A stretch of DNA of 64,000 nt from Pycnococcus provasolii (taxonomy: Eukaryota > Chlorophyta > Pseudoscourfieldiophyceae > Pseudoscourfieldiales > Pycnococcaceae). This document shows, in pieces, positions 6,310 through 60,972 of the stretch (the stretch's first letter is position 1; every line of letters begins with the position of its first letter). The stretch lies in contig OW568871.1 in the NCBI GenBank assembly GCA_938743325.2, forward strand, positions 1 through 64,000. The letters run 5' to 3'. The notes under the pieces were generated by a model. It saw nothing but the letters and a program-made list of their open reading frames with translations, did not search any database and had not been told where the DNA came from. The translations under genes and the position numbers were made by a program.

Positions 6310-6622
6310 CAACTGGTTTCTTTGATATAATATCAATAGCAAGCGACTGACTGGTTTTGCAATTTCCGCGACGTGAAAAACTAAAATCGTAAAATAAAAT
6401 CCAAAAATCACAGGGAAAAAAAGATACTCCGGATAAGAGAGAAAAATAAATTTTAATCTGGAAACTTTTGGGGTTTTAAGTAGTCGGGGTTTATGTAAGT
6501 CGGGGTTTGAATTAGTCGGGGTTTGAATTAGTCGGGGTTTTAAGTCGGGGGATCCTCCTGCAGTCCTGCTGAATGAGATGGGTTTTTTTGGACTACGGAT
6601 CTTCTCACTTCATTCTCAGTTC
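6233..6622. other. Divergent promoter region with CA microsatellite
   Basis: This AT-rich gap separates ispE and the PqqB-like gene, which are transcribed away from each other. A (CA)n tract covers about 6278-6307. The right part holds a tandem array of the recurring GTCGGGGTTT element, listed separately. No ORF or RNA gene is seen. Confidence 0.6.
6483..6550 (+). promoter_or_regulatory. Tandem array of the GTCGGGGTTT promoter-like element
   Basis: GTCGGGG starts at 6483, 6499, 6515, 6531 and 6544. The first four copies are spaced exactly 16 bp and read GTCGGGGTTT. The fifth is followed by GGATCC. A weaker copy, TTTGGGGTTTT, lies at about 6468. The array ends about 70 bp before the ATG of the PqqB-like gene. 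The same core occurs singly or in inverted pairs before many other genes here, so a promoter or 5'-UTR role is inferred. Confidence 0.6.
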
Positions 6623-7462
6623 ATGGCGGTTGTGACGTTGCTTGGAGTTGCCCAAGACGGTGGGCGCCCGCAGCCCGGATGTACGAGGTCATGCTGCGAA
6701 AATCTTACGGAGCAAGATTACAGGTGCCCGGTTTCTCTGGCTGTTCAAACCATGAATGGAACAACACTCCTCGTCGAAGCGACGAGAGATCTCGGACGAC
6801 AATTGCGCATGATTGACAACCCAAGCATCGACCATCTCTTCATCACACATGCCCATCTTGGACACGTGGATGGACTCGGATTGTTCGGCCGGGAAACAAT
6901 GTCAGCAAGACACATCCAGCTTCATTGCAGTCCATCGATGCGAGCATTGATTGAAACTACACCAGCTTGGAATCAATTGCTGCAACAAAACGTGTTTGAG
7001 TTCAGTGAATTTCCACGCGTTGAAATCGACGATGTCGTCGTTGAATTTATCCAAGTTCCACATCGTGCAGAACTCTCCGATATGCATGCTACAATCATTA
7101 GAGGATCGGAGAAGTCGCTGCTATTCTTACCCGATCATGATTCTTGGGTTGAAACACTTGAAAGTCACGGCTGTGAATCCATCCGGGCGTTTCTTCAGAA
7201 ATTTTCAATCGATGTTGCGCTTCTAGATGGAACCTTTTGGTCAGGAGGAGAACTCCAAGGCAGGGACATGAGCGTTGTCCCACATCCAACGGTCGAAGAA
7301 TCTCTGAAGCGGTTGGGAACGCGACGTGCTGAAGATCCTGAACTTCACTTCATTCACCTCAATCATACAAATCCGCTCTACGACCTGAATTCGGAAGCCT
7401 ACAACCAAGTAAAGCAATCAGGTTGGTCGATCGGATACGAAACACAACAGTTCAAGATCTGA
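6623..7462 (+). CDS. PqqB-like metallo-beta-lactamase-fold protein
   Basis: A 279-residue protein resembling PqqB and related metallo-hydrolases. It opens with LLGVAQDGGRPQPGC followed by a CC pair, as in the PqqB N-terminus. The metal-site region is THAHLGHVDGL, where the usual Asp of HxHxDH is Gly. Near the C-terminus FIHLNHTNPLYD resembles the PqqB signature around NNTNP. The start at 6623 (MAVVTLLG) fits the conserved beginning; an upstream in-frame ATG at 6578 adds only a poorly conserved leader. No other pqq gene is nearby, so PQQ synthesis itself is not supported. Base composition is clearly lower in GC (about 45% in lines I counted, against 60-67% in neighbours), which suggests a different origin, possibly bacterial transfer. 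Confidence 0.8.
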   Translation: MAVVTLLGVAQDGGRPQPGCTRSCCENLTEQDYRCPVSLAVQTMNGTTLLVEATRDLGRQLRMIDNPSIDHLFITHAHLGHVDGLGLFGRETMSARHIQLHCSPSMRALIETTPAWNQLLQQNVFEFSEFPRVEIDDVVVEFIQVPHRAELSDMHATIIRGSEKSLLFLPDHDSWVETLESHGCESIRAFLQKFSIDVALLDGTFWSGGELQGRDMSVVPHPTVEESLKRLGTRRAEDPELHFIHLNHTNPLYDLNSEAYNQVKQSGWSIGYETQQFKI

Positions 7463-7577
7463 TTTCTGCAAGAAATCTTTTGTTAAAGAAGGAAAGATTC
7501 ATCAAGAAAGGGTCGATTTTCATTTCAAATGGAAGGAGATTCGAGACAAAACTGAACGCCCCCTCCCCTTCTCACCT

Positions 7578-8912
7578 CTACGCCGTCAACGCGTTGTCAC
7601 CGGAGGCAAACGAGCCAATCAACGACGCGTTGTAGTCCTTCACCTGCTGACGAAGCTGGTGGTACTGCTCGAGGATCTTCGATGCCTCAGCCTCGTGAGA
7701 AGCCTGCAATTCGCGGATCATCGATGTCGTCTTGCGAACGTGCGCCTCGTACTCCTCCAGCTTCGACGCCGACATGCCGACGTCGCTCTCCACGCTCGCG
7801 AGATCCGCCTTCGCCTCGTTCAGCGCGCTTGCGGCACTCTCCTTCTTCAAGTTGCCCTGCTTCCCCAGCCGAGTCAGACGCTCGCTCAACGCGCTCTCTT
7901 GCCTCTTCATGTGATTCGCCGCCGCCGTCAGCTTGAACACCTCCTCCTCGTTCTCCCCAAGCTTCGCCTGAACCGCCTTGACACTGTGTGAAACCTCCTT
8001 GTGCTTCCCAATCTCGCTCTCCGCCTCCTCCATGAGCTTGACGCACTTTCCAATCTCGCGGCTCGCCTTTGCGTACAGGTCGCCCTTGTGGTTCAGGTTG
8101 CGCAGCGTCTTGTCAAGTTCGCCCACAGACGTCCTCTCACGTTCGATGGCGTTCTCGAGGTCGGATATTTCGCGCGTGAGCTTGTCTGGGCTTGTCACGA
8201 CGCTGTCCTGTAGGAACGCCTTGCGTGCCTCGTGTCGGCTGAGTTCGTCCTTCGCGACGTTGGTTTTGTCCGCAAGCGCTGCAATGGAGTTGCGCGTCGT
8301 TTCGTTCGCCGCCTCGAGTGTCTCTCTGTTCTTCTGCGCGTCGGCGACTTGCGTTCGCAGGTTCTCAGCCGCCTCGAGGACTTCTGCGGTTTGCGACGCC
8401 TCCGCCTGGTGGCTGGCACGTATGCGTGCGATTTCCGCGCGCAGCTCAGCCGCCTTTGCGTCGAGCGCGGCTTTTTTCTCGAGCGTTGCTTCCGCCTCTT
8501 CCTGCAGTTCGACGTACGTCGCGAGTTTCTCTTCGCGAAACTTGGCGAAGTTGATGATTGCGCTGAGGTTGCGTCGCAGGCGCGTGTAGTCCGGCTTGTA
8601 GATATCCTTGAGTGAGAAGTCGGAGACACCTGACGCTTCGAGTAGTTTCACGAGGTTTCGCACGAACGCGAGGTTCGCGAGTGACTCTTCGTGTAGTTCT
8701 GGAAAGTCTCCTAGAGATGCAATGGCGTTAAAAGCTGGCGTTTGCATTTCTTCACGCGACACGCCACATAACAGGACGGTAATGGATTCGTACATGGGTC
8801 GTGCAATTTCGTATCCCGGTTTCGTGAGTTCGACTTCCGAGAGCGGCACGTCGAGTTCACTCAGGCATGCCAGTATCTCCGCATTCGTCAGGATGGGAAA
8901 CGAGTACGACAT
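7578..8912 (-). CDS. NUF2: Kinetochore protein NUF2
   Basis: Subunit of the Ndc80 complex, which links kinetochores to spindle microtubules. The N-terminus (MSYSFPILTNAEILACLSEL) is the start of the NUF2 calponin-homology domain, which continues to about residue 135 with DIYKPDYTRLRRNLSAIINF, a highly conserved NUF2 stretch. The rest, to residue 444, is a long coiled coil rich in Glu, Lys, Ala and Leu, where NUF2 pairs with NDC80. The length matches the family (about 440-460). The gene lies tail-to-tail with the PqqB-like gene, with 115 bp between the stops. Confidence 0.93.
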   Translation of the reverse strand: MSYSFPILTNAEILACLSELDVPLSEVELTKPGYEIARPMYESITVLLCGVSREEMQTPAFNAIASLGDFPELHEESLANLAFVRNLVKLLEASGVSDFSLKDIYKPDYTRLRRNLSAIINFAKFREEKLATYVELQEEAEATLEKKAALDAKAAELRAEIARIRASHQAEASQTAEVLEAAENLRTQVADAQKNRETLEAANETTRNSIAALADKTNVAKDELSRHEARKAFLQDSVVTSPDKLTREISDLENAIERERTSVGELDKTLRNLNHKGDLYAKASREIGKCVKLMEEAESEIGKHKEVSHSVKAVQAKLGENEEEVFKLTAAANHMKRQESALSERLTRLGKQGNLKKESAASALNEAKADLASVESDVGMSASKLEEYEAHVRKTTSMIRELQASHEAEASKILEQYHQLRQQVKDYNASLIGSFASGDNALTA

Positions 8913-9196
8913 GTCTACTAACTATAGAGGCAGAGTGAGGCAGAGTGCTGCAGAGACACACACAAGCAGGCAGACCAGCCGAGAGGGGGAAATGACAACG
9001 ACAAATGGCACGCGAATGGGAGGGAGGGAAAAACGCGCCCTCGGACCCTGGGAACTAACTCCAAGGGTTTGAAAATTCCCACCCCCTGTACAGGTTTCAT
9101 CATGGATCCCCAACCTGCCAACCTGCCAACTGGAACTGCCCCGGGGGAGAAACAGAAAAATAAAAATGTCAACAACGGAGGGGTGTCATCATCAGG
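8913..9196. other. NUF2 upstream region
   Basis: Upstream sequence of NUF2 (minus strand) running up to the telomere-repeat tract. It is GA-rich on the plus strand. No gene or clear element is seen. Confidence 0.5.
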
Positions 9197-9410
9197 CTAA
9201 CCCTAACCCTAACCCTAACCCTAACCCTAACCCTAACCCTAACCCTAACCCTAACCCTAACCCTAACCCTAACCCTAACCCTAACCCTAACCCTAACCCT
9301 AACCCTAACCCTAACCCTAACCCTAACCCTAACCCTAACCCTAACCCTAACCCTAACCCTAACCCTAACCCTAACCCTAACCCTAACCCTAACCCTAACC
9401 CTAACCCTAG
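9197..9410. repeat. Interstitial telomere-type (CCCTAA)n tract, about 35 copies
   Basis: Perfect CCCTAA repeats run for about 210 bp in the C-rich orientation, as at the left end of a chromosome. The complementary repeat is TTAGGG. The tract begins 285 bp upstream of NUF2, so it is internal to the chromosome here. Translations of it (Asn-Pro or Val-Arg repeats) are meaningless. Confidence 0.97.
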
Positions 9411-9482
9411 ACGTAACCCTAGACGTAACCCTAGACGTAACCCTAGACGTAACCCTAGACGTAACCCTAGACGTAACCCTAT
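9408..9482. repeat. Degenerate telomere-derived 12-bp repeat, six copies
   Basis: Directly after the perfect tract the sequence changes to AGACGTAACCCT repeated six times. It reads like telomere repeats alternating with a diverged hexamer, as in the subtelomere-proximal edge of a telomere. The change from perfect to variant repeat fits a former chromosome end whose inner side lies to the right. Confidence 0.9.
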
Positions 9483-9507
9483 TCGCCAGCCTGGTGCTTA
9501 GCCGCAC

Positions 9508-10221
9508 GTGGTGAAAAAAAAAATTCTCGCCTGCGGCGTGCGGCCGACCGTCGGCCAGCGTCGTCGCGTGCGCGCGGCTAAGGCTCAAGATGAACCGCCT
9601 TTGCCGTGCTCCGCTCCTTCTTGTCCGACGGTAAAGTATGACGAGAGTCATAACTCATACTTGGATCTAGGATCCATTATTGGATCACTGGATATGTTGG
9701 AGTTTATGGTTTGGGGGTTAGTAGTCGTCAGGACTACTAACTCTACTGGATATTATATAGAAAATGGAATCTCTAAGAGATCTTGTTGTGAAGGAGTCGA
9801 CGTCACCTGTCGACACCTGCCGATTCATCAGTTTGGAACCATACCGACAACATTCGGACAACATGAATCAGCACGCAAATCATTCAAAGAGTCCAAACGC
9901 CGTCATGAAGAACTGCTGAAAGCACAGGCAAAACACTTCCACCACCGACAAATTGAAGAAGACCTGCGTCAAGCTGCAGCCGTGAAACAAACTCAACGAC
10001 TCGAAGCAGAAATGCTACAAATGGAAACTGATCGCGAACAAACTAAGAAAGCTGCTAAAGAAGAACTCAAATGGCTGAACTCGCGCCAGAAAGAAATGCA
10101 TTCGCGCCTCATCGAAATGGAAAAAGCCATTGACAAATCCTCCACCATACTCACACAGATGAGTCAGGCAGCCACTCAACGATCCAGCAGGAGAAGTGGA
10201 GAACTAAAAAGATACCACTAA
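9508..10221 (+). CDS. Unidentified coiled-coil ORF in telomere-bounded insert
   Basis: A 237-codon frame with a mixed first half and a convincing coiled-coil second half, about residues 115-225, rich in Glu, Gln, Lys and Arg (for example QRLEAEMLQMETDREQTKKA). Base composition of the second half is AT-richer than host genes. I do not recognise the family. It could be a fragment of a subtelomeric gene or mobile element carried with the telomeric DNA. A perfect hairpin lies inside it at 9717-9741. Whether it is expressed, and where it starts, is unclear. Confidence 0.35.
   Translation: MVKKKILACGVRPTVGQRRRVRAAKAQDEPPLPCSAPSCPTVKYDESHNSYLDLGSIIGSLDMLEFMVWGLVVVRTTNSTGYYIENGISKRSCCEGVDVTCRHLPIHQFGTIPTTFGQHESARKSFKESKRRHEELLKAQAKHFHHRQIEEDLRQAAAVKQTQRLEAEMLQMETDREQTKKAAKEELKWLNSRQKEMHSRLIEMEKAIDKSSTILTQMSQAATQRSSRRSGELKRYH
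9717..9741. repeat. Perfect 10-bp inverted repeat
   Basis: GTTAGTAGTC and GACTACTAAC flank a 5-base loop GTCAG, so a stable hairpin is possible. It lies inside the telomere-bounded insert. Function unknown. Confidence 0.8.
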
Positions 10222-10570
10222 CTCTATCCGTATTCCGGGTAAGTTATATATTCGTCAAAGTAAAATATCGTCTTTTACTTTTAACTTCAATATCGTATGA
10301 TTTATAATCTCGCTATTAAATTTTTACTTTAACTCTCATAAACAACGTTATAATATCGTCAGATAGATAAACGCATTATTATTTGTGCGCGCGGCGCTGC
10401 ATGATATTAGATATTGGCCTTATTCATTGGGCTCGCGCGGAAATAAATACGACGGCGGTCATCCGCGCGCAAAGCCCCGACGACCAGTGAGCTCAGACGA
10501 TTATCCCGTTATTCTTCGGACAATTGATGAAGTACCTCGTAGGCTCGTACTTCTTCAAGCGAGCAAGTCG
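10222..10570. other. AT-rich non-coding part of the telomere-bounded insert
   Basis: This stretch is strongly AT-rich (runs of TTTTACTTTAA type), unlike host intergenic DNA, then turns GC-richer after about 10385. I see no supported gene. It ends at the short TTAGGG remnants. Confidence 0.5.
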
Positions 10571-10611
10571 ATTATTAGGATTAGGGTTAGCAGCTAGGGT
10601 TGCTAACCTTA
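10571..10611. repeat. Short TTAGGG-like remnants
   Basis: The stretch reads ATTAGGATTAGGGTTAGC, then CTAGGGTTG. These are telomere-like units in the G-rich orientation, opposite to the CCCTAA tract at 9197-9410. Together the two bracket about 1.1 kb of foreign-looking DNA with outward-facing telomere repeats. Confidence 0.7.
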
Positions 10612-10691
10612 GGTCAGCGGGGGGAAGCTTTTAACCGATCAACCACCACCACCTCTTCTTATTTCCAGCCAACCATCCAGAGCCAATAACA

Positions 10692-11591: not shown

Positions 11592-11640
11592 GGCGACACG
11601 TAATATAGATCAAATTCCATTCTTTTTTTCTCAAATTATT

Positions 11641-11648
11641 TAACACAC

Positions 11649-11682
<34 letters not shown>

Positions 11683-11702
11683 CGACCGACCGACCGACCG
11701 AC
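11641..11702. repeat. (CA)n followed by (CCGA)n microsatellite
   Basis: About 40 bp of CA repeats run into five CCGA units in the gap between two convergent genes. Confidence 0.95.
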
Positions 11703-16406: not shown

Positions 16407-18014
16407 TTAGAGCACGGATGCGCCGTACTCCTCGACGATTGCCTTCCATTCGCAGACACCTGGCGCAAAGTCGGGGAGATAGCTCGTCTCCGCCGCCTTG
16501 GTCATCACGTCGAGCTTAGGAGTCTTAACTTTAGCACCAGACTGGAGAAGCTTCATCTGAACCTCGCAGCATCGCTCGAAGTAGTACGCAAGAACCCACG
16601 CCGCGGCAACGGTGGGACCAAAGCAGCAGAATCCGTGGTTGTGCATGAGCAGAGTGTTGCATCCGGGAACGGACTTCACAGCCGCTTCAAGTAGCGGCTG
16701 CTCATTCGCGTCGTCGCTAACGCCATCCCACTCATACGTTGCCACGCGTCCATGGAAGTATGCTCCATCCTGCGTGTACGGCACGAACCCCATCTCGAGA
16801 CACGACACTGCGGTGGCGTAAGGCGTGTGCAGATGGATGATTGCGCCAATATCCGGTCTTGCGGCGTACACCGCGGCGTGGATAATGTCCGCTGTGATGT
16901 TGTTGCTGCTGATCACAAGATCGGATGCACGCACCTGGCCCCACAGCAAGTTTCCAGGCGTGATGAGGCATCCGTCACCGAATCGAGCGCTTACGTGGTT
17001 CCACACGAGCATATCCCACCCAAGTGCGGCGGTGGCACGGTGTGCCACGGCGAGGTCGCGTCGAAGCTCCGCCTCCAGCGCGGCGTCCTTGGCACTGCCA
17101 CCCGCGCCGAACGCCTCCTCTAGAAGTGGCAGCAGATCGTGCACGAGCGCGGCACGCACCTGCTCCGTGTTTGTCGCGTAGTGTGGCAGGATGTGGCATC
17201 GTGGGCAGGACCACAATGCGTGTCCTTCCGGAAGTGGTTCGGGAAACGTCGTGTCGAGGATGGCGTACTTGATTTCCCCCGCATTCAGCGCGTCGGTGAG
17301 CGCGTCGGTGTCGATCACCTTACCTCGCGCAAGATTGAGAATTCCCGACGACGGCCTCATCGCCTTGATCACGTCAGCGCTGATGAGGTGTTCCGTCTCT
17401 GGTGTCAACGGGCAGAGAAGCACGAGGATGTCGCACTTCTTGGCGAGTTCCACGATCGACGGCTCGTGCTGAATTCCGAGGCGCTTCTCGACATCCTCCG
17501 TTCGTCGTCGACGCGCGTTGTACAGGACCGTGCACTTTGGCGCAACAGCCTTAATCTTTGTAATCATCGACGTCGCAATCGCGCCGAGTCCAACGATGCC
17601 CACGGTGGCTGTATTAAGGTCCGTTCCCTTTGTATTCCAAGACAGATTCCATCCCGACGACGGGAAGGGAACACCCACCTGATTCATGGCGTCACGAAGT
17701 CCCAGGATGGTAAACGCGACACCATAGTCAGCGACGTGCTCGGTGATCGTGTCGACGCCATTTCTTCTCACTTCGATGCCACGTGCCTCGGCAGCCTTCA
17801 CGTCCACGTGGTCGGTACCTGAGCTCATCGTCACGATGAGCTTAAGTGTCGACGGCAGCTTGCTGATGACATCCGCGGGCAGCTTGTCTGCGACGGTGAT
17901 GAGCAACGCGTGCGTGTCGTCGGGAAGTGTGCTCACGTCAGTGCCGTGCACAAATGAGTTGATGGACAGATATTTCGCACTTGACCTGTGTGTGTTTTTT
18001 GTGGGCCAAAACAT
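16407..18014 (-). CDS. Fused D-2-hydroxyacid dehydrogenase / class II aldolase
   Basis: One 535-residue frame joins two enzymes. Residues about 1-300 are a D-isomer-specific 2-hydroxyacid dehydrogenase of glyoxylate/hydroxypyruvate reductase type: NAD loop VGIVGLGAIATSM, catalytic Arg in LNLARGKVIDTDAL, Glu in FPEPLPEGHALW, His in ILPHYATNTEQVR. Residues about 315-535 are a class II aldolase/adducin domain: NHVSARFGDGCLITPGNLLW, zinc ligands in IIHLHTPYAT, and MHNHGFCCFG. The key residues of both halves are present, so both may be active, perhaps on linked C2-C4 hydroxy/keto acids; that is inference. There is no obvious targeting peptide. The gene lies tail-to-tail with SecA. Confidence 0.88.
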   Translation of the reverse strand: MFWPTKNTHRSSAKYLSINSFVHGTDVSTLPDDTHALLITVADKLPADVISKLPSTLKLIVTMSSGTDHVDVKAAEARGIEVRRNGVDTITEHVADYGVAFTILGLRDAMNQVGVPFPSSGWNLSWNTKGTDLNTATVGIVGLGAIATSMITKIKAVAPKCTVLYNARRRRTEDVEKRLGIQHEPSIVELAKKCDILVLLCPLTPETEHLISADVIKAMRPSSGILNLARGKVIDTDALTDALNAGEIKYAILDTTFPEPLPEGHALWSCPRCHILPHYATNTEQVRAALVHDLLPLLEEAFGAGGSAKDAALEAELRRDLAVAHRATAALGWDMLVWNHVSARFGDGCLITPGNLLWGQVRASDLVISSNNITADIIHAAVYAARPDIGAIIHLHTPYATAVSCLEMGFVPYTQDGAYFHGRVATYEWDGVSDDANEQPLLEAAVKSVPGCNTLLMHNHGFCCFGPTVAAAWVLAYYFERCCEVQMKLLQSGAKVKTPKLDVMTKAAETSYLPDFAPGVCEWKAIVEEYGASVL

Positions 18015-19358: not shown

Positions 19359-20062
19359 TCCTCCTGGTATTGCTTGAGTTGTGATGGGATCGGGGCAGCG
19401 TTAGATGCGAAGGGGAGGGGGTGCCCTGTGCTGTGTTGTGATTGGGATAGCAGGATAGAGAGAAGGAGTTGAAGAAAGAAAAGGAGCCTGGGGCTTTTTC
19501 CACCTCTCCTTCTTCCTCCCATCCGCCCAGAAAGGGCAACGACTTTCCGGGGCATCAGATTCGGGGTTTGGGAAGTGACGCCTGAGGTCGTGAAGCGTCG
19601 CCCAGATGCACGGGGACGGCGACGACGAGGAGGACGCGTCTGGGCGTATTCCAGTGTCCCCCGGATGCGGGTGTTCGCGCTTTGAAGGGTCGGCGGAAAT
19701 CCAAGCAGGCCGAGAGCAGAAAGAGAGAAGATCTGCCGCTGCTCGTGGGAAAACGCGTGAGGCATTTCCCCCGACGCCCCTGCACCACTCAACCTCCTCC
19801 CCTCCCCTTTTCCCCTTTCCCTTTCCTCCACCTTCCCCTTCGACATCCATCCATCCCACGCCACCCTACGCATAACTCGCACAACTCACTGAACTAGTTC
19901 CTCTCTCTTCTCGTCGTCCGCTGGTGTGCATAAGCAGCGTTCTCTCTCTGTGAACACGGAGGGCAAGCCAGAGAACCGGCACGCGGGCTTGGTATACCGC
20001 GCTGATCACACGTACAAGAAGACTGGACTTTTCACAACACAAATACACTTATATTCACAACC
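19359..20062. other. Divergent promoter region, methyltransferase and BCAT
   Basis: A 704-bp gap, among the longest here. It contains TTCGGGGTTT at 19560-19569, about 200 bp before the methyltransferase start, and C/T-rich runs around 19790-19850. Long frames crossing it are low-complexity and not supported as genes. Confidence 0.5.
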
Positions 20063-21449: not shown

Positions 21450-22499
21450 TTACTTACAAAGTGGCTCGTGCGCGATGAGGTGGTCAAGCGCCGCACACAC
21501 AGCAGCCACCTGCGCTGCGTTGCACTGCTCGGGCGTGGCACTGGGGGAATCTGGGTACACCTCGGTGGTGGTTGCGTACGAGGCATTCGTCACGCCGGCG
21601 CACAGGCCAAGCTGGTTTGGCGGTGGAATGCCAATGACACCTTCCTGGATCACCTCCTCGCCGATAATCTTGCCGTTGGCATCAGGCGGTGCGATGTGCG
21701 TCACGGTGCGCACGCCGTCGATGATCGCCTTCACCCACGCCGTCTGCGGGTTACTGTTGTCAGCGACAAGGTAGAAGCCATCGGGGATGAGGTCAGGCTC
21801 GCTTTCCACGCCGTCGCGGGCAGCCTTAGCAGGTCGAAACTCCGACTCGTCCGTGTCAGTAGTCTCGTGCAGGTCTATGTGACAGAGCCATCGCGCGACA
21901 CCAAGCGACTTGAGCACCGCAATGACTGCGGTCGACTCCTCTGTTGCCGGCTCAGGATTAAAAGACCTTCCAGGCACGACTTCGCCGTTCGGGTTGAAGC
22001 TTCGATTGGGGTCAACGGCACTTGCATTCCAACGCTGGATCGTCTCGTAGCCCCACGGCGATACGCAAGGAAGCACGACGATGTTGAACTTGCTGGCATA
22101 CTGCTCAGCCTTCGTGGCTAAAAATGCAATAGCGCCCTGCACGCCACTCGTCTCGTAGCCGTGAACACCTCCCGTCACAAGGACGCAAGGTTTGTCGTCA
22201 CTCCACGTTGCGAGCGTGCGCACCGCAAACATCTCGTAAGACCCGTGCGACAGAGAGCCGTACCTTGTGACGTCGAACTTCGACTTGAGCGGCTCAAGCT
22301 TCGCCACCACCTCGTCGGCGTAGCTGCGCTGGATTTCACGCGTGTTCCTCCAGTGGAGTTTTTCGGCATCTGTCCACGCCGCGCCAGGAGTTCCTATGGG
22401 ATATCGCACCCCCGCCGCCATCGCACGCACGCGTTGATACGATCGTGTCGACGAATAGAGACGCACAGGAGAGGTGGTGGTGGTGCACGCCGTGCGCAT
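21450..22499 (-). CDS. M14-family zinc carboxypeptidase-like protein
   Basis: Metallopeptidase of the M14/succinylglutamate-desuccinylase-like fold. Zinc ligands fit VTGGVHGYETSG (HxxE) and HIDLHETTDTDESEF; substrate binding fits DPNRSFNP; the catalytic Glu fits ATTTEVYPDS. The start at 22499 gives MRTACTTTTSPVRLYSSTRS, a Ser/Thr/Arg leader that fits a mitochondrial or plastid presequence. A shorter start at 22421 (MAAGVRYP) begins at the conserved part. The substrate is unknown. A TTCGGGGTTT element lies about 90 bp upstream (22586-22595). Confidence 0.82.
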   Translation of the reverse strand: MRTACTTTTSPVRLYSSTRSYQRVRAMAAGVRYPIGTPGAAWTDAEKLHWRNTREIQRSYADEVVAKLEPLKSKFDVTRYGSLSHGSYEMFAVRTLATWSDDKPCVLVTGGVHGYETSGVQGAIAFLATKAEQYASKFNIVVLPCVSPWGYETIQRWNASAVDPNRSFNPNGEVVPGRSFNPEPATEESTAVIAVLKSLGVARWLCHIDLHETTDTDESEFRPAKAARDGVESEPDLIPDGFYLVADNSNPQTAWVKAIIDGVRTVTHIAPPDANGKIIGEEVIQEGVIGIPPPNQLGLCAGVTNASYATTTEVYPDSPSATPEQCNAAQVAAVCAALDHLIAHEPLCK

Positions 22500-22636
22500 G
22501 TACTGTACCTTGTGGGGACAAGAATGGCGGGAGGGTTGCCCCCTCTGGTTGCCCCTTTTTCCGACCCAGCCGCCACGGTTCGTTTTTCGGGGTTTGTAAA
22601 TGTGCATGTGTTCATATGACGCTTTCTGTTGGGTGT

Positions 22637-23692: not shown

Positions 23693-24122
23693 GGGAAAGA
23701 GGAGTTGGAGGGAGAAGGAGTGGCTCACAGGGAAGGGAGGGCCAGCCTGGGAAGGGGCGCGAGGCAGGTGCTCGAAGCATCGCATTCTGCATTCATAATA
23801 ATAATCGGGGTTTCAAAACCGGAAGAAGCTTTGAGTCGTTTCCATAAAAGCCCGAAATCCGTCCGTCCCTCTTTGATTCTTTCCATCCCTCTGCGAATGA
23901 TGGGATGGTTTCGCGCTCTCTTTTGCCTCTCCCCCTCCTTCAGTCCTTCCCCCCCTCCCGGTCCAGGTCCTCCTCCTCCCCCTCCCTCAGGCCGCGCCAT
24001 TTTAGTTCACAGCTCACAGCTCCTGACTCCTCACGCTCGCGGGGCTGGCAGCGCACTTCAGGAGGCCGTCACACACGCTCCACGCGCACTGCAGTAGTCA
24101 ACTCGCCGCTGGGGCGACCATC
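23693..24122. other. Divergent promoter region, methyltransferase and Fused-like kinase
   Basis: A 430-bp gap with one ATCGGGGTTT element (23804-23813) and a C/T-rich tract (about 23930-23990) before the kinase gene. No gene is seen. Confidence 0.5.
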
Positions 24123-32936: not shown

Positions 32937-32938
32937 TA

Positions 32939-33564: not shown

Positions 33565-33574
33565 TTCGGGGTTT
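33565..33574 (+). promoter_or_regulatory. TTCGGGGTTT element, MUG-like gene
   Basis: Exact copy of the recurring element, 37 bp before the chosen ATG and about 95 bp upstream of the divergent PSMG3-like start. Confidence 0.55.
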
Positions 33575-33610: not shown

Positions 33611-34420
33611 ATGCCGGCGCCGGCGCTCAACCCGTTCGACGCGTTTCGGCTCACGTCGGCAGCAGCCACCGCTACGACGCCCTCCAAGGTGCCGCGCCGG
33701 CTCACGTCGGCAGCAGCCACCGCTGCGACGCCCTCCAAGCGAAGAAAGATTGCGCCAGCCGCAGCGAGGAAGGAGTGTGCCACCAACGCAGCAGCAGCCG
33801 ATGAGGCACCTCGTCAGCCTGCTGGTCTACCTGAGATGCTTCCAGCTCACCCACTTAGGCTCGTTATTGTAGGGCACAATCCAAGCGAGCGAGCTTGGAT
33901 GGACGGACACTACTATGCGAACCCTTCCAACCATATGTGGAAAATTCTCGAGGAAACCAATCTTGCACCCAAGAACCTCATAAGCGGCGCTCAAGACGAC
34001 TACAAGATGCCTGCTCTTTGTGGGGTTGGGTTTACCGACGTTGGCACAGGTGTTCCCGGAACGCAGAGTAGCAAATTCTCGGACGCTGACTTGAGAAGGT
34101 GGACTCTCGACGCCGAGAGTGGATTTTATGCACGACTACGTCGTCACGTATCCCTTGCTGGAGGGACGCCGCCACGAGTTCTCGCCTTTGCCGGGAAGCG
34201 GCAGTACACCGTTCTTTTTTCGAAGAAGAAGCAGGTTGACGTCGGCCCGCAGTCTCACGCAAGCCTTCCACCAGATTGGCCTCTCGACGAATCGACGAGC
34301 GTTTGGGTCATGCCTTCGACGAGCGGCGCTTCGGCACTGACCAGGGAGCAGAGATATGGGCCTTGGCACGAGTTGGCATCTCACGTGCTCGCCATCGACT
34401 GGGAACAGCGCGCCTTGTAG
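33611..34420 (+). CDS. G/T-U mismatch-specific DNA glycosylase (MUG/TDG-like)
   Basis: Base-excision repair enzyme that removes uracil or thymine from mismatches. The catalytic region is LVIVGHNPSERAWMDGHYYA, where the Asn of the GxNPG-type motif is kept. The second motif is VWVMPSTSGASAL, in the place of the family's NPSG motif. MWKILEETNLAPKNLI and GVGFTDVGTGVPG also fit. The start at 33611 (MPAPALNPFDAF) is 37 bp after a TTCGGGGTTT element (33565-33574). The N-terminal tail is basic and holds a 17-residue (51-bp) tandem duplication (RLTSAAATATTPSKVPR and RLTSAAATAATPSKRRK), probably a DNA-binding or nuclear tail. Confidence 0.88.
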   Translation: MPAPALNPFDAFRLTSAAATATTPSKVPRRLTSAAATAATPSKRRKIAPAAARKECATNAAAADEAPRQPAGLPEMLPAHPLRLVIVGHNPSERAWMDGHYYANPSNHMWKILEETNLAPKNLISGAQDDYKMPALCGVGFTDVGTGVPGTQSSKFSDADLRRWTLDAESGFYARLRRHVSLAGGTPPRVLAFAGKRQYTVLFSKKKQVDVGPQSHASLPPDWPLDESTSVWVMPSTSGASALTREQRYGPWHELASHVLAIDWEQRAL

Positions 34421-35101: not shown

Positions 35102-35130
35102 GTCGGGGTTCTCTAAAACTCAAACCCCGA
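35102..35130. promoter_or_regulatory. Inverted pair of the CGGGGTT element, divergent promoter
   Basis: GTCGGGGTT (35102-35110) and AAACCCCGA (35122-35130) face each other across 11 bases between the divergent YlxR and basic-protein genes, 77 and 58 bp from the two start codons. Confidence 0.6.
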
Positions 35131-35187
35131 ATAATCGGCGCGCCGCCCTCCGCCTTCTTTCCCCCTCGGCTCAGACGCGACACGCAC

Positions 35188-36498: not shown

Positions 36499-36838
36499 AC
36501 TTCATTGTTTGTCTGTATAGTACGTACCAAAAATAACATCTTGAAATATTGTGACATATCTTGTGAAGAAGTGATTTTTTTTTTATCCCTTCCTATCACA
36601 CTCACTCGTGCATTGCTTGCTCTCCGTTGTGTGCGTGACGGTGATCGACGACGGCGTCGTAGCACGCGGTGGTGTTACAACACCCCTTCACTGCAAGCGC
36701 GCGGATGCAGCCCTAAACCCCAACTCCAACTGGCCCTTTCTCGAATCCAACCCTAAACTTTACGTTAACCCCTAACTGGTACGTCCGCCGCCGCCCGCCT
36801 CAACCTGTGAACCACTTTCCACTCGTTTGGTGTGGGCC
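36499..36838. other. Intergenic region upstream of SNRNP27
   Basis: A 340-bp gap. The right part carries AAACCCCAACT (about 36717) and AACCCCTAACT (about 36768), variants of the recurring element, within 120 bp of the SNRNP27 start. No gene is seen. Confidence 0.5.
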
Positions 36839-37417: not shown

Positions 37418-37828
37418 GAGAGAGATTGAGATGGATTAGAAAAAAAATCCTTTTGATTTTGATATGTAACATTGAACACAGACGTTTTTACAGCGGATTC
37501 GGCAGCGCGCGAACGACCCCTAACTAAGGGCGCCTACGCAGTACGCACTCGTCGATGGCGGATGCTTCTTCCATCCAGGAGACCAGGAGGCGAATGGAAA
37601 GAAGGGACCCCCCCTTGAACGCAACAATTGTCGAGGCCGAGGCCTTGCTTGTTAAACACCTTCGAACTACCCTTTGTTCTCCCTTCCTTCTCTTCGCGCC
37701 GCCGGGTTCGGTTTCGGTTTGGTGTTTTGGTTTGCGTTTGGTGTCACCTCCCCTGTTCTCCCAACAGGGTTTTGCCGCCCTCGCCCTCCCTCTCCCTCAC
37801 CCTCTTCCATTTTCCGCCCCTGCTCGCC
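37418..37828. other. Intergenic region and 5' leader of RAN
   Basis: A 411-bp gap between two plus-strand genes. It contains ACCCCTAACT at about 37515. The open frame that continues upstream of the RAN ATG is C/T-rich leader, not protein. Confidence 0.5.
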
Positions 37829-41323: not shown

Positions 41324-41811
41324 GGTGACTGCGAGATCCCTGTGTGACACCGATGAGTCACGTCGAAGGAAGGGCAGGAGGGTCCGGAGGGGGAGGGGGA
41401 ACAGTCCCATCAGACTTACTTTTTGGTAAAGGTTTCCCGTTCCACGTGGGACAGCTAATAAACCCCGAACTCTTTTTCATAATTCGGGGATGTGCAAAAT
41501 CTTATCCCTCTTCGTTGGGACTTCTGACCCGTCAGCACATTCCATTCCCTCTCATTCCCACTCGTGGAGTTCGAATGCACGTCGCCTCCAAGCACGCCTT
41601 CTCCGCGCGGGTAGCCACTCGCCACGCACCACTGGCAACACGCAACGTACGTCAACCGCGCAAAGGACTCGTCTCTCTGGCCAAACTTCAACTTCGTTCA
41701 CTCACAACCTCGTCGCCTCTCCCTCCCATAAACGAATGAAAACAAACTACTTCCAACGAACGCTCGTCTTGGTTATTTCCTACTTAGGCGGCTCGCCGCT
41801 CAGTCAAGGCG
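41324..41811. other. Divergent promoter region of toroid gene and selenoprotein W
   Basis: A 488-bp gap. It holds the inverted pair AAACCCCGAA (41460-41469) and TTCGGGGA (41483-41490). The rest is non-repetitive. No gene is seen apart from short shadow frames. Confidence 0.5.
41460..41490. promoter_or_regulatory. Inverted pair AAACCCCGAA / TTCGGGGA
   Basis: Two copies of the recurring element in opposite orientation with a T-rich 13-base spacer, in the divergent promoter between the toroid gene and the selenoprotein W gene. Confidence 0.6.
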
Positions 41812-42177
41812 ATGGCGGGAATTCCTCTGCACATCGAGTACTGCGAAAAGTGAAACTACATGCCCCGGGTGAAGATGCTCATCATGAAGGCTGACGCGGC
41901 TTTCCCGGGGAAGTTTGACTGGACGTACAACGTTCGCGAGGTGCTCGAACGAACCGTGCCGGAGGGAAAAGGATGGTACCTCGAAAATCAGGCTGAAAAA
42001 CCCATCGAGGGAGGTGAGAGTGCTCTGTGGCGCAAGGGCGCTTTCGAAGTGCTCCGCCTCGACACCGACGAGCTGCTTTACTCGAAGATGAGTGCGGGCG
42101 AGCACCTCGTCGACGGCAAGGGCGGACCTGAGGGAAAACTCGGCACGTTCGTCGAGAACGTGCTCGGTAAGCAGTGA
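41812..42177 (+). CDS. SELW: Selenoprotein W with in-frame UGA (Sec14)
   Basis: The ATG at 41812 begins MAGIPLHIEYCEK; the next codon, 41851-41853, is TGA, followed by NYMPRVKMLIM. This gives CxxU (CEKU) after a beta-strand, the redox motif of the Rdx/SelW thioredoxin-like family. The rest (FPGKFDWTYNVREVLERTVP ... KGAFEVLRLDTDELLYSK) fits the SelW fold; total 121 residues. A conventional reading would wrongly start at the Met codon at 41860 and lose the active site. The frame ends on another TGA (42175-42177), so UGA is read two ways in one message. A SECIS fold follows 65 nt after the stop. SelW is thought to act as a small thiol redox protein. Confidence 0.9.
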
Positions 42178-42489: not shown

Positions 42490-42927
42490 TTACATGAGCT
42501 TAACATATCCGGTGCCTTTGCACTCTTTGCAGAAGATGATGCCTGCACCTCTGCACTGCGGGCACTCGCAAGGCGACCTCTGCACGCCAACAAACGCGTC
42601 GACGGACAAGCCCGGTTTCTCCGGGTCCTTTACTTGTCCTTCGACGCGCCCTGTGCCGAGGCACATTGTGCACTGCAACCCTCCCGTTCCTCCGCACGCC
42701 GCGCACGGCTCCGGTTCCCCCTTGAGTCCGTTGAGCAGTGCGGGCGCGATGACCGCGACGCCCGCTCCGATCACGAGAGCCGTTTGCACACCGAACGGGT
42801 CAGCATCCGCCCGCGTCGTGACTGCGCGCCCCCTGAGCTTCTGCTTTCTTGCAACGATATTTCGTGCATTTCCCTTCGGACGCAAGATACTACGCGCCCC
42901 CGATGACATGGTACGTGCCGTCATCAT
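42490..42927 (-). CDS. LQY1/BSD2-like DnaJ zinc-finger plastid protein
   Basis: A 145-residue protein. The start at 42927 (MMTARTMSSGARSILRPKG) gives a Ser/Arg/Lys transit peptide of about 40 residues. One hydrophobic helix follows (VQTALVIGAGVAVIAPALL). Four CxxCxGxG zinc motifs come next: CAACGGTG, CTMCLGTG, CPQCRGAG, CKECKGTG. A membrane helix plus this DnaJ-type zinc finger without a J domain is the plan of LQY1, a thylakoid thiol-disulfide isomerase in photosystem II repair. BSD2-type Rubisco chaperones are the alternative but lack the membrane helix. AAAACCCCGA lies about 175 bp upstream (43101-43110). Confidence 0.82.
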   Translation of the reverse strand: MMTARTMSSGARSILRPKGNARNIVARKQKLRGRAVTTRADADPFGVQTALVIGAGVAVIAPALLNGLKGEPEPCAACGGTGGLQCTMCLGTGRVEGQVKDPEKPGLSVDAFVGVQRSPCECPQCRGAGIIFCKECKGTGYVKLM

Positions 42928-43354
42928 AGCAGGGTACTGTACCGGTACTGGCCAGCAGACGCGTACCTGTACAAGCACGAGACCAAAGCACGAGACACTC
43001 CAGGCGAGTGGTGAGATACTCAGATACGCCGAGGTGGGAGACTCCCTTGGAGAGTTGGAGAGGTGGAGGGAGCACAGCCGCACAAAAACAAGCGGAGGAG
43101 AAAACCCCGAAAGAAAAAGAAACGAATACGACATGCTCTCGAACCCCTAACTAACTATGAGTACAACCCATTTGGAACCGGTATCCCCTCTGCATGCCTG
43201 CTCCGATGAAAGGAACTCGTGGGAAACAAACCTGTAACTTTATCCTTCCAGCCCCGAGCCCCTTCCCCTTCCCCTTCCCCTCCCTGCCCTTTTCCCTGCC
43301 CTTCCTTCCCTCGCCGCCACCGCCTGCCTCGCCCCTCTCCGGCGTCAACGACAC
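42928..43354. other. Divergent promoter region, LQY1-like and TOC34-like genes
   Basis: A 427-bp gap. It contains AAAACCCCGA (43101-43110), AACCCCTAACT (about 43144) and a C/T-rich tract (43255-43320) before the TOC34-like start. No gene is seen. Confidence 0.5.
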
Positions 43355-45915: not shown

Positions 45916-45965
45916 AACCCCTAACTCAACTCCATAATTCCGGGGAATGATCCAAACCCCGAAAA
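45916..45965. promoter_or_regulatory. Divergent promoter elements AACCCCTAACT and AAACCCCGAAAA
   Basis: AACCCCTAACT lies at 45916-45926 and AAACCCCGAAAA at 45954-45965, with TTCCGGGGAA between them at about 45938-45947. The set lies between the Lys/Ala-rich gene (start 45814, minus) and nicastrin (start 46094, plus). Confidence 0.55.
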
Positions 45966-48253: not shown

Positions 48254-48591
48254 AAAAAAAACGTGTGTAGTACTTCATTCGAGATATAAATAGAATAATC
48301 TCCAACAATCCTTCCTCCTATTCTTTCTCCTATGTGACTGGAACGGAATTGTTTTCGGGGTTAGATTAGATTAGGGGTTTCGCGCAAGTGGTTTTTTTTG
48401 TCGCGGGCCTGCTGCGGCCTGCTTCGTAGGATTCGCGCCCTCCCTCCCTCCCCTCCACCTGGTGCCCTATAAATTTCCGCACGCGCGCGCGACTCTCATG
48501 CGACAGACAGACGGCAGCTACCACAAATAGTACCACTGTAACTGTAAACGACGACGACGCTGCTGCTGCTCCTATCCCAACGCACCCAACG
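48254..48591. other. Intergenic region upstream of HUS1
   Basis: A 338-bp gap between two plus-strand genes. It contains TTCGGGGTTA (48354-48363) and TTAGGGGTTTCG (48371-48382), about 210-240 bp before HUS1. No gene is seen. Confidence 0.55.
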
Positions 48592-58300: not shown

Positions 58301-59074
58301 GCGCTGTCTCCAGAATTCCAGGCTGCGTGCGAGGACCTGCGCGCCTTCGTGGAGGCTGTGGAACCCCCGGCAAGCCTTGTCGAAGCCGTCGCCAAGGCAA
58401 TGCCCGTGTCTGGCGCCGCCATCTGCCGAAGCAGTGCCAACGTGGAGGACCTCGAAGGCATGAGTGCCGCTGGATTGTACGACTCGCTTGCCTGCGACGG
58501 CACCCCGGCGGGACTCGCGACGGCGATCCGCGGAGTCTGGGCAAGTCTTTACACGCATCGTGCATGCGTGAGCCGCTGGCGTGCGGGAGTTGGGCAGAGC
58601 ACCTCGCACATGGCTATTCTTGTGCAGCCGTTGCTGAATCCGGCGTACTCGTTCGTCCTTCACACGAGCTCGCCGCTCGTTGCGGGGGATGACCGATGCG
58701 TGCACATGGAGCTGGCTGTGGGACTGGGGGAGACGCTCGCGAGCGGCGCCGAGGGAACGCCGTACCGCATAGAGGTGGACAAGGCGGATCCGGAGAGGGG
58801 CGTGAAGACGCTGGCGCTGAGTTCGTTGTCGTACGCGCTTCGTCCTGGCAGTGTGCCTGGAAAGTACGATCGCGTCGCGGTTGACTACTCGAATGAGCCC
58901 CTCACGAAGAGCTCGGAGCAGCGAAATGCTCTTGGCGCTCACTTGTGCCGGGTGGGAGTGGCTGTTGAGAACGCGGTGGCAGGTGGGCCGCAGGATATTG
59001 AAGGCTGCTTTGTGATGGATGGGCAAGGGAACGGAACGGTGTACGTTGTGCAGACGCGCCCGTTCACAATGTGA
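55310..59074 (+). CDS. PWD: Phosphoglucan, water dikinase, plastid
   Basis: Starch-phosphorylating enzyme that adds phosphate to pre-phosphorylated glucan so it can be degraded. The order is a basic Arg/Ser transit peptide (MPAASMPSLASRGARVALFG), a CBM20 starch-binding domain (VVGDCPELGNWDVNSALKLN), a DUF2934-like helix (VRAYILWEHAGMPDGG), and a Pro/Gln low-complexity linker. The GWD/PWD core follows (RDIAHRSDIPHDLKQEIKHT), then the phosphohistidine domain with catalytic His819 (LPHLSHLGVRARQERVVFAT), and a C-terminal ATP-grasp domain (ICRSSANVEDLEGMSAAGLY). At 1254 residues it is in the PWD range (about 1200). CBM20 separates it from GWD1. Confidence 0.93.
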   Translation: MPAASMPSLASRGARVALFGRRVHVLRWRPKRTHVTRSVSTRSVLNAAATVVQFTTRTNGDCRVVGDCPELGNWDVNSALKLNNGVAEVTLPAGKKVEFKFVVDGSWEGGDNRVINVAPSTPIATLVIPQAKADATPVDEEVMAVRAYILWEHAGMPDGGDFGTAAEAEIRGAMALGYDGKTLLHHFTTGDPLPPPSGAPATPPPPPPPPPPQQQQQQQFQAQAPPPPPPPPPPPPPPQQQQHQPQQQRSGEFPAFASTDDGSGARQWQGRDVNFMRSNEHSRDRSGRWDGSVCGNHFESKLVSGDESSGSWREKLDVVCQVLCEGGTASNGEALAACAVYLEWVSTGAVQCVEGGGHYRPNRHAELSREIFRALERNAHALDDGASLAARRVHPWLPAFTAEFTQSVPLTRIRDIAHRSDIPHDLKQEIKHTIQNKLHRNAGPEDLVATEKMLERILNENANQRDGSHGPYPQAFVDEFKTFYAELKDFFNAGGVEESLANVCSEHGDLSQYADPFLGAKRAIDSNDAPIDAVLNVLEPLANLRGELVGRIGSFNIDDDGAAASAQKMRLLELGLETYAFVVASRALGMLGVGEGDADVNPSAAPALLRISASLINHVSMAGYRRDECAILSRELEGLASAGQVDMLAAVGASQRCRRVLNAFTEDSGAVFGGASDRLGRALGIPDNTYKVFHEASIRAHVAFPASRAVSALLKIARTAPSNGDGGQGGGDAAPLFSPFDVLVSGNAEGKLLVVPELTPEVLRPYYNADGTPYVLLVARASGDEEVASSYREGSTGADGMDLRIQGVVLQQELPHLSHLGVRARQERVVFATCTDDSEIAKLKELDGSYVSFVATPDGVDINVTSEPAPAARAPAAPAPAAPAPIPAASPDTAYGRFVSDPSSPFAGAAGGASGAAKADLTKAGTVVPLVDAVGATCGQKSANCAQMLATAAASNGLFDAPGGCALPYGTMQVSLEAAGKLAEFEQKLSNLEGIADALSPEFQAACEDLRAFVEAVEPPASLVEAVAKAMPVSGAAICRSSANVEDLEGMSAAGLYDSLACDGTPAGLATAIRGVWASLYTHRACVSRWRAGVGQSTSHMAILVQPLLNPAYSFVLHTSSPLVAGDDRCVHMELAVGLGETLASGAEGTPYRIEVDKADPERGVKTLALSSLSYALRPGSVPGKYDRVAVDYSNEPLTKSSEQRNALGAHLCRVGVAVENAVAGGPQDIEGCFVMDGQGNGTVYVVQTRPFTM

Positions 59075-59176
59075 TGTGATCATTGCCGTGTTTGTGGCGC
59101 CGAGTGGGAAATCAAATAAACTAAGAATACTCATTCAGTAATGGAATTAGGTTTACTTCTTATTTTATATTAGATA

Positions 59177-60820
59177 TTATAGCACATCGTTGTCAAAATT
59201 CAGACCTTGCAATCCAGACCTGCGCATCGTCTCGTCCATCTTTGCTTCAAGCAGCTGAATCTCCTCGAGGCCCATTTGGTCGTCCAAAACGACAACATCG
59301 CGCCTGTTGACTCCAGAATTTGACAGAGATGCCGCGTGGATCGCGGCGCCGAGTGCCACAGCCTCGTCTGGATCCACGCGGGCCTTGGCAAAGATGGCGT
59401 CATTAGGATCGCCGAGTGTTCCAGGTTTTCCACCCGTGCAAAATCCAGCAACGGCAGAACGCACGATGGGCATGGAAGTCGCCCCTCCCACAAGAATCAC
59501 ACCGTCGAGCATCCGTGGCGTGAATGGATCGCCTTCTGTCGTCTCTGCGTCCTCGAAAGCCTCCAACAATACCTTGATGCATCGTGCAATCAGCGGTGCA
59601 CATGCAGCCTGCATTTGCTCGCGCGTCAGCAGAACTTTGCAGTCGCCGTCCGTGTGATTCAACGTCTCCAGGATCACGGTTGTTTCATGTTCAGTGGACA
59701 GCGACACCTTCGCTTCCTCCGCCGCCTTCACAAGCAATGCCATCGAAGTCGCATCGCCACGAATAGCCGCAGCGGTGCTCTCTCCGTGCGTCGCAGAAAT
59801 TTCGCCAAGCAGCACGCTCGCAATACGCTGGTCAAAATCGTCGCCGCCCAGCTGCGAGTCGCCAGCGGTGCTCAGCACCTCGAAGACACCGTCGCCGCAT
59901 GCGAGCAGCGAAACGTCGCACGTGCCGCCACCTAGATCGAACACACACAGCAGGAGGTCGTCCTCCTTCGCGGCGAGCTCAGATGGCGCACTTGCCCATC
60001 CCAGCGTATTTCTCACCTCATCCCACCAGGCTGACGTCTCGTCTTCACCCCCCGGTCTTCGCCCATAGCCGTACGCCACAGCCGCCGCTGTCGGCTCGTC
60101 CACGATGCGCAGAAGGTCAATTCCCGCGAGCTTGCACGCCTCGCGTGTAGCCTCACGCTGCCTTGCGTCGAAGTATGCGGGCACGGCAATGACCGCTTGT
60201 TCGACGTCGCATCCCGCCTGTTTTGAGACGTCTCTCTTGAGGACTGCAAGTATTTCTGCCGACACTTCCTCGCATTTCAAGTCGCGACCGAGCGCAGGGC
60301 ACGCCACCGTGCAATTTATGTGCCCAAGTTTATCGTCCAAGCTTCCGTTGAGTTGAAATGGCACGAGCTCATGCACCTTCTCGGCGTCGCCTGAGCACAT
60401 GCCCCCGTGAATGACGTCAAGCATGGACCGTCCAAGGAACCTCTTTATGGATCGGAACGTATTCCGCGTGTCGGAGTTTGCGCGTTCTTGGGCATCTCTA
60501 CCCACAAGCACACTCACCTCCTCTTGGTTGTCTTCCCGTAAGTACGACACGACGCTCGGCGTCGTGGTGCGGCCGTGCGCGTTCGGCGCACACAGGATGC
60601 GCATAGCCCCCGAGTCCGTCGTGACGAGTGCCGCGGCGGAGTTGGTGGTTCCGAGGTCAACACCAAACGACATGGACGGCGGTGACGGCGACGACGACGA
60701 CGACGAGGCTGCGAGGGGCCGCTTCTTCTGACGTGGCGGGCGCGAGCACGGTCGGCAGACTCGCGGGACCACAGACATCGCGGGGGACCTTGCCACGGTG
60801 ATGGGGGAGGGCGCCGCCAT
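59177..60820 (-). CDS. Hsp70-like protein consisting of the ATPase domain only
   Basis: A 547-residue protein. The N-terminal 50 residues are Ser/Pro/Arg-rich, fitting a plastid transit peptide. The Hsp70/DnaK nucleotide-binding domain is complete: FGVDLGTTNSAAALV, VIAVPAYFDARQREATREAC, RIVDEPTAAAVAYGYG, CVFDLGGGTCDVSLLA and GVILVGGATSMPIVRSAV. It stops about 50 residues after the domain; the usual substrate-binding domain and lid are absent, and the interdomain linker DLLLLDV is not seen (VNRRDVVVLDDQ instead). It may act as a regulator or ATPase partner rather than a chaperone. It is the convergent neighbour of PWD, 102 bp apart. Confidence 0.88.
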   Translation of the reverse strand: MAAPSPITVARSPAMSVVPRVCRPCSRPPRQKKRPLAASSSSSSPSPPSMSFGVDLGTTNSAAALVTTDSGAMRILCAPNAHGRTTTPSVVSYLREDNQEEVSVLVGRDAQERANSDTRNTFRSIKRFLGRSMLDVIHGGMCSGDAEKVHELVPFQLNGSLDDKLGHINCTVACPALGRDLKCEEVSAEILAVLKRDVSKQAGCDVEQAVIAVPAYFDARQREATREACKLAGIDLLRIVDEPTAAAVAYGYGRRPGGEDETSAWWDEVRNTLGWASAPSELAAKEDDLLLCVFDLGGGTCDVSLLACGDGVFEVLSTAGDSQLGGDDFDQRIASVLLGEISATHGESTAAAIRGDATSMALLVKAAEEAKVSLSTEHETTVILETLNHTDGDCKVLLTREQMQAACAPLIARCIKVLLEAFEDAETTEGDPFTPRMLDGVILVGGATSMPIVRSAVAGFCTGGKPGTLGDPNDAIFAKARVDPDEAVALGAAIHAASLSNSGVNRRDVVVLDDQMGLEEIQLLEAKMDETMRRSGLQGLNFDNDVL

Positions 60821-60864
60821 TGAAACAACAGGCAGGCAACAGGAAGATTGCTTTCCCTGGGAAC

Positions 60865-60880
60865 CCTAACCCTAACCCTT
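60865..60880. repeat. Short CCCTAA remnant
   Basis: Two to three CCCTAA units (CCCTAACCCTAACCCT) lie 45 bp upstream of the Hsp70-like start codon (minus strand). They may be chance or a telo-box-like promoter element. Confidence 0.6.
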
Positions 60881-60962
60881 TCCCTGGGTTGTTGAAAATA
60901 ATAATTGACAGATTTTTTAGGTTTCGTTGTGTTTGTTCGAGGGTCAAACCCCCAGAAAGGAA

Positions 60963-60972
60963 ATCGGGGTTT
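60963..60972 (+). promoter_or_regulatory. ATCGGGGTTT element, divergent promoter
   Basis: One copy of the recurring element between the Hsp70-like gene (minus) and the Asp-rich repeat-protein gene (plus), 90 bp before the latter's ATG. Confidence 0.55.

Follow-up and report, generated by a model that had tools for sequence, protein, structure and literature searches.

The 64-kb stretch analysed here (hereafter, the window) forms the start of contig 11 of the green alga Pycnococcus provasolii, whose genome assembly comprises 32.3 Mb in 46 contigs. It carries 35 gene models, which are open reading frames (ORFs) scored by a codon model under the assumption that introns are absent, and which cover 78% of the window. 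Among them are ORFs for a plastid-type SecA, a CBM20/PPDK dikinase, an AIG1-type GTPase, nicastrin and SNRNP27. In gaps between these ORFs recurs a short element, TTCGGGGTTT, accompanied by a sister form, TTAGGGGTT(T). In the DNA examined, both are found almost only before genes and are, therefore, probably landing sites of a protein that helps to switch on many unrelated genes.

In the window, TCGGGGTTT has 13 exact matches, four of them in an array at 6484-6540, versus 0.34 expected, and none of 100 shuffles reaches 13. AACCCCTAACT has three exact matches (36767, 43142 and 45916) versus 0.02 expected. Genome-wide, TTCGGGGTTT occurs 987 times and its reversed word 27 times. The corresponding counts are 1223 versus 127 for TCGGGGTTT, 248 versus 9 for AGTTAGGGGTT, 671 versus 61 for TTAGGGGTTT and 389 versus 45 for TTCGGGGAT. 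The exact telomeric form (telobox), TTAGGGTTT, which an earlier note on this DNA had not covered, is enriched, too (1613 versus 358). Since reversal destroys CpG, the reversed control is lenient and flatters the ratios of the CG-bearing words. A better control is an order-2 Markov test inside the 5' gaps, i.e. those gaps that hold a gene start. It was performed on a 124-kb sample composed of the window and the loci L019 and L029-L033 (ORF-based gene models, 83.6% coding), on which the placement counts below rest as well. There, TCGGGGTT was found 17 times in 5' gaps versus 0.63 times expected. Coding DNA holds four copies (1.27 expected), all of them at ORF edges. TCGGGGTT is the most widespread 8-mer of the 5' gaps: it is present in 11 of 30, and non-overlapping words reach at most seven. 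The window is denser in the element than the genome average, from which 1.95 copies of TTCGGGGTTT are expected versus seven present. The earlier note had called for a comparison of counts with a control; with 987 versus 27 copies genome-wide, they are not equal.

All 26 sites in the sample are located in gene-start-bearing gaps or at most 28 bp inside the first ATG of an ORF. Twenty-two are intergenic, 14 of them in divergent and eight in tandem gaps, and the 6.2 kb of convergent gap contain none. The other four lie inside ORFs, each no further than 28 bp from the first ATG, and the true start of these ORFs may be located further in. Counted by gap, a site is present in 11 of 17 divergent, four of 13 tandem and none of 18 convergent gaps. 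This means, 15 of 30 5' gaps carry a site versus 0 of 18 convergent ones (Fisher P = 0.0002). The window alone yields 13/23 versus 0/12 (P = 0.0009) in a test that extended the 5' gaps, not the convergent gaps, by 30 bp into the ORF. Hence, the recurring, promoter-restricted element described in the earlier note is confirmed, and an even spread over promoters, 3' gaps and coding DNA was not seen in the 124 kb. Intergenic sites are found 12-309 bp from the nearest downstream start. This agrees roughly with the 40-250 bp given previously, but three window sites (22590, 43106 and 45958) lie 11-28 bp inside the first ATG of an ORF. In the case of nicastrin, the metagenomic homologue P0121 comprises 719 aa versus 768 aa in the ORF, a length consistent with translation from an in-frame ATG 147 bp inside the ORF. 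In that case, the 45958 site would be upstream of the gene. The G strand is the strand of the nearest downstream gene in six of 16 clusters and the opposite one in ten. A fixed orientation to the gene was not seen, and the claim that the element occurs in either orientation stands. Such a mixture is as expected of a duplex binding site.

The core of the element is sharp and reads TT[C>A]GGGGTT(T). When any of the four G is changed, 0 or 1 copy is left in 5' gaps versus 10 for TTCGGGGTT. Single-base variants of TTCGGGGTT are near-absent from 5' gaps, except for those with A (also G, T) in place of C. At the first base, G (from the 6484 array) or A was found, and at the first T past the G run, A twice and G once. 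Genome-wide, TTCGNGGTTT occurs 1191 times, with G in 987. The total for TTNGGGGTTT is 2770, with C in 987 and A in 671; among the matches listed, many of the G and T forms are in tandem runs. Outside the telomere-repeat array at 9201-9404, TTAGGGTT has four sites in the sample, all in 5' gaps.

Table 1. Copies of the element, its sister form and a related array in the window
Feature	Coordinates	Strand	Context
Array of four TCGGGGTTT, 16-bp spacing (6484, 6500, 6516, 6532), preceded by TTTTGGGGTTTT	6470..6542	+	5' gap of (-) GHMP-kinase ORF 5075-6232
Interstitial array, 34 exact TTAGGG units (telomere repeat)	9201..9404	-	Divergent gap 8913-10691; related sequence, not the element
TTCGGGGTTT	19560..19569	+	Divergent gap, methyltransferase (-) / aminotransferase IV (+)
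TTCGGGGTTT	22586..22595	+	17 bp inside first ATG of (-) ORF 21450-22607; next in-frame ATG 108 bp in
TCGGGGTTT	23805..23813	+	Divergent gap, methyltransferase (-) / protein kinase (+)
TTCGGGGTTT	33565..33574	+	42 bp upstream of UDG ORF 33611-34420
TCGGGGTT	35103..35110	+	First arm of an opposed pair, the window's only observed one
TTCGGGGTTT	35122..35131	-	Second arm of the opposed pair; 162-bp divergent gap
Sister form AGTTAGGGGTT	36767..36777	-	Upstream of SNRNP27 ORF (+); telobox AACCCTAA at 36749, 18 bp off
Sister form AGTTAGGGG	37517..37525	-	Upstream of Ras-family ORF (+)
TTCGGGGTTT	41460..41469	-	Divergent gap 41411-41859
TTCGGGGTTT	43102..43111	-	28 bp inside first ATG of (-) ORF 42490-43134; AIG1-type GTPase ORF divergent
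Sister form AGTTAGGGGTT	43142..43152	-	Same strand as the 43102 copy
Sister form AGTTAGGGGTT	45916..45926	-	Divergent gap upstream of nicastrin ORF (+)
TTCGGGGTTT	45954..45963	-	Upstream of the probable start of nicastrin (in-frame ATG, offset 147)
TTCGGGGTT	48354..48362	+	Upstream of Hus1 ORF (+)
TTAGGGGTTT	48371..48380	+	17 bp from the 48354 copy, same strand
ATCGGGGTTT	60963..60972	+	Divergent gap, HSP70 (-) / ORF without assigned function (+); telobox AACCCTAA at 60862 in the gap

Seventeen of the 19 positions listed in the earlier note carry the element or its sister form, some of them in a shortened version: the copies at 35102 and 48354 end with GGGGTT and lack the third T, the one at 37515 is ACCCCTAACT, and the one at 48371 is TTAGGGGTTT. 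The remaining two, 41483 and 55090, have TTCGGGGAT instead of GGGGTTT. The statement that the genes concerned are unrelated is supported by the Pfam matches of the flanking ORFs. Outside the window, nine of 20 flanking ORFs have a match, and these are mixed in function, as are the 35 window ORFs; a function common to the flanking genes was not seen in the Pfam matches inside or outside the window. RNA genes as the cause of the clusters were rejected, too: 17 loci showed no Rfam match at the gathering score and 20 loci no tRNA, and the window contains neither.

How does the element relate to the telomere repeat? Among 18 readable contig starts (first 800 bases), 16 contain TTAGGG arrays, and ten begin inside one. 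TTAGGGT is present in 16 of the 18 in 16-37 copies. TTCGGGG was found as a single copy in each of two starts and TTAGGGG as a single copy in one. Telomere ends were, therefore, rejected as the source of TTCGGGG. With TTCGGGGTTT as main form and TTAGGG as telomere, the earlier view that the element resembles, but differs from, the plant telo-box was correct. The contig starts, e.g. those of L011, L013, L015 and L022, read TTAGGG; in L015 and L022, several TTTAGGG units are intermixed. The start of L027 holds about nine TTCGGG units and one TTCGGGG, with TTAGGG units also present. This run may link the C-for-A form to the chromosome ends. In the window, the CCCTAA array at 9201-9404 runs into a 12-bp derivative, CCCTAGACGTAA.

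Copies that lie close together point in the same direction, which the earlier note had not reported. The first 100 listed places were examined for each form. Neighbouring copies at most 60 bp apart share the strand in 10/10 cases for TTCGGGGTTT and in 16/17 for AGTTAGGGGTT, i.e. in 26/27 pairs for both forms pooled (binomial P = 4e-7). Neighbours 60 bp to 20 kb apart share the strand in 28 of 47 cases (P = 0.24). The telobox TTAGGGTTT behaves similarly, with 9/9 neighbours within 60 bp on the same strand on contig 1 (64 places). For mixed-form neighbours within 60 bp, the figure is 7/8 in 2.3 Mb. A tally over the locus set gave 46/47 pairs, but these loci had partly been picked for clusters, so the tally of the first 100 places is more trustworthy. 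The opposed pair 35103/35122 is the window's exception to the same-strand rule. Some of the clusters consist of simple 7-bp tandems (L004, TTCGGGG; L039, TTAGGGG). In others, the copies lie at distances of 11-48 bp, and the spacers are similar in part. Local duplication accounts most simply for this polarity, and a polar, cooperative binder behind the clusters is possible. The co-occurrence of both forms was considered as proof of one reader and rejected, because 12 mixed-form neighbours were found within 150 bp versus about 10 expected.

A candidate reader is encoded in the genome, which goes beyond the earlier note as well. A genome search with the Myb domain of Arabidopsis TRB1 yielded matches with 68%, 67% and 50% identity and two weak ones. 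The three Myb-telobox genes all have the recognition helix VDLKDKWRN, which is the helix of TRB1. Pfam assigns the three proteins to Myb_DNA-binding, and the part seen is the Myb domain (261-401 bases per gene), which in two of them (the 67-68% matches) is apparently N-terminal. A recent duplication appears to have given rise to two closely similar TRB-type genes (L051 and L052; contigs 37 and 9). According to PMC3935891, Lys, Asp and Arg are the base-reading helix residues of human TRF1/TRF2. By reading of the alignment, they are kept in all three algal proteins. With the helix and these residues conserved, a telobox system appears to be present in this genome and is predicted to read TTAGGGTT.

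Our preferred reading, to which we assign a probability of roughly 60%, is that a telobox or general-regulatory promoter factor with a broad range of action binds the element and its sister form as duplex DNA and would keep 5' gaps open, often for divergent gene pairs. The binder would be a sequence-specific protein recognizing GGGGTT in the gap before genes, with TTCGGGGTTT and TTAGGGGTT(T) as its double-stranded DNA sites; the most plausible candidates are a Myb-telobox protein and a factor that has taken its place. Once bound, it could hold the gap open by clearing nucleosomes and help to recruit the transcription machinery for one flanking gene or for both. Protein binding, the identity of the binder, nucleosome clearing and activation are suggested by analogy to telo-boxes and to Tbf1/Rap1. 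Several observations weigh against this proposal. Half of the 5' gaps (15/30) lack a site. L031-L033 and L019 contain no site at all: the 5' gaps of L031 (n=3) and L019 (n=1) are without one, and L032 and L033 are one open frame each, without any gap. Furthermore, the selection of L029 and L030 was not blind. Tandem duplication alone may account for the same-strand clustering, and the 12 mixed-form neighbours mentioned above compare with about 10 predicted by common promoter space, a figure obtained by rough scaling of 1.15 from random shifts. Finally, a helix identical to that of TRB1 predicts TTAGGGTT, not GGGG. Another protein may therefore read the dominant form; conservation of this helix argues against a simple change of specificity within it.

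An alternative that we regard as unlikely is an ordinary transcription-factor site without a tie to telomeres, e.g. that of a zinc-finger protein reading a T-flanked GGGG, with likeness to the telobox arising by chance. It would be in line with the mismatch between the dominant form and the TTAGGG repeat, the rarity of TTCGGGG at contig starts (2/18), the standard recognition helix of the telobox proteins and a base preference that is that of one sharp site. It does not fit the graded series TTCGGGG, TTAGGGG, TTAGGG, the 7-bp telomere-like array units in L004 and L039, the promoter restriction and same-strand clustering common to the forms, and the TTCGGG run with one TTCGGGG at the start of L027. 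Decidedly less probable is a mutational by-product: in open, break-prone promoters, telomerase or slippage might add and multiply functionless G-rich telomere-like units. The discussion of PMC3022908 proposes such a route for telo-boxes (spreading model, Gaspin et al., 2010), and head-to-tail clusters (26/27 pairs), partly similar spacers and 7-bp tandem runs are what it would leave behind. However, the commonest form would not be the product of a TTAGGG telomerase and is rare at contig starts (one copy each in 2/18). With 10 neighbour pairs among its first 100 listed places, TTCGGGGTTT mostly has no further exact copy at a distance of up to 60 bp, and the base preference is strict. The absence from all 18 convergent gaps also speaks against it, although a promoter-tied route would predict the same.

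The two roles proposed in the earlier note fared worse. The location in front of genes (26/26) would be explained by a core-promoter element whose position and orientation are fixed; an element of the 5' untranslated RNA, which the earlier note does not mention, would explain it, too. Since the distance to the ATG varies from 12 to 309 bp, both orientations occur (6 versus 10 clusters) and 15 of 30 5' gaps are devoid of a site, a core-promoter role found no support; in addition, copies are often several. We consider it very improbable. For a replication-origin or insulator element, in our view extremely improbable, the intergenic location can be adduced and nothing more, and the absence from 18/18 convergent gaps argues against a general insulator. 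A more specific scenario, which we consider rather unlikely, can be put forward tentatively. In this green-algal line, the main site of the telobox promoter system might have shifted from TTAGGGTTT to the GGGG form TTCGGGGTTT, with TTAGGGGTT in between. This would have freed gene control partly from the telomere sequence. The reader might be the duplicated TRB-type proteins or a successor, and the sites would be arranged in polar head-to-tail clusters.

Some further observations concern other parts of the genome. A D-2-hydroxyacid dehydrogenase and a class II aldolase domain are combined in a single ORF at 16407-18014 of the window. L032:1-10000 and L033:1-10000 are each occupied by a giant gene, i.e. 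one minus-strand open frame of more than 3,300 codons that is open at both ends and carries Ig-like or filamin repeats; introns were not seen within the stretch. Chlorophyll-binding matches number 51 genome-wide. Twelve of equal score form two groups of six on contig 31 (at about 133-143 kb and 360-366 kb), and the one examined is Lhcp-like. Among solved structures, 7yca from Ostreococcus is its top single-domain match (275 bits); a multi-domain chain of 9vfj scores above it. This Lhcp is 61% identical to a 'prasinophyte specific' protein of Micromonas commoda. Together with window contents such as the plastid-type SecA and nicastrin, the chlorophyll-binding matches assign the genome to the prasinophyte-type green algae. 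In three protein searches, the closest matches were near-identical metagenomic proteins.

A search for the letters of the element in the open-access literature, which leaves subscription papers mostly outside its coverage, returned matches on unrelated subjects and nothing relevant, and wider topic searches gave nothing on the word among the matches listed. The accessible part of PMC2850359 does not contain the term 'motif'. Short telomere-like promoter boxes as such are a known kind. Like the algal element, the plant telo-box AAACCCTA is short, resembles the telomere and recurs in the 5' region of numerous genes, and telo-boxes act together with other elements (Gaspin et al., 2010, PMC3022908). 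The algal sites share the preference for the 5' flank (26/26; 15/30 versus 0/18). Plant telo-boxes equal the telomere unit. The main algal form, in contrast, differs from the local TTAGGG, with a run of four G and with C in place of A. Neither TTCGGGGTTT nor TTAGGGGTT is the alga's own telomere unit; TTAGGGTTT, present in addition, nearly is. Furthermore, plant telo-boxes are noted at translation-related genes and go along with ribosome-biogenesis genes and site II / TEF elements, whereas the genes flanking the algal sites are mixed.

The second comparison is with TRB and TRF-like Myb-telobox proteins (PMC10167121 and PMC4700174). The alga encodes single-Myb proteins of the TRB type, judged from the Myb domain, and three genes carry the VDLKDKWRN domain. 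According to PMC10167121, TRBs bind to single telo-boxes and to the promoters of genes. The same papers place the first TRB in Klebsormidiophyceae (PMC10167121) and an Smh/TRB branch already in unicellular algae (PMC4700174), so that the genes found here bear on the origin of TRB proteins. The third comparison is with Tbf1 and Rap1 of yeast, likewise telomere-type DNA-binding proteins at many promoters, for which PMC6410037 describes nucleosome exclusion. Their sites differ in sequence from those of the alga, which share with general regulatory factors the occurrence at many unrelated promoters and the independence of orientation. Nucleosome exclusion of the Tbf1/Rap1 kind would explain the placing of the element. 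A GGGG-shifted box unlike the TTAGGG telomere, alongside a true telobox, appears to be new, as judged from the literature searched. If our reading is correct, a prasinophyte-type alga gains a named promoter word, the most widespread 8-mer in 30 sampled 5' gaps, which bears on the recurrence of telomere-like words in plant and yeast promoters. Since the telomeric form and the telobox proteins have been retained here alongside a main word unlike the telomere repeat, it can now be asked whether it is the protein or the telomere that ties promoter word and telomere repeat together.

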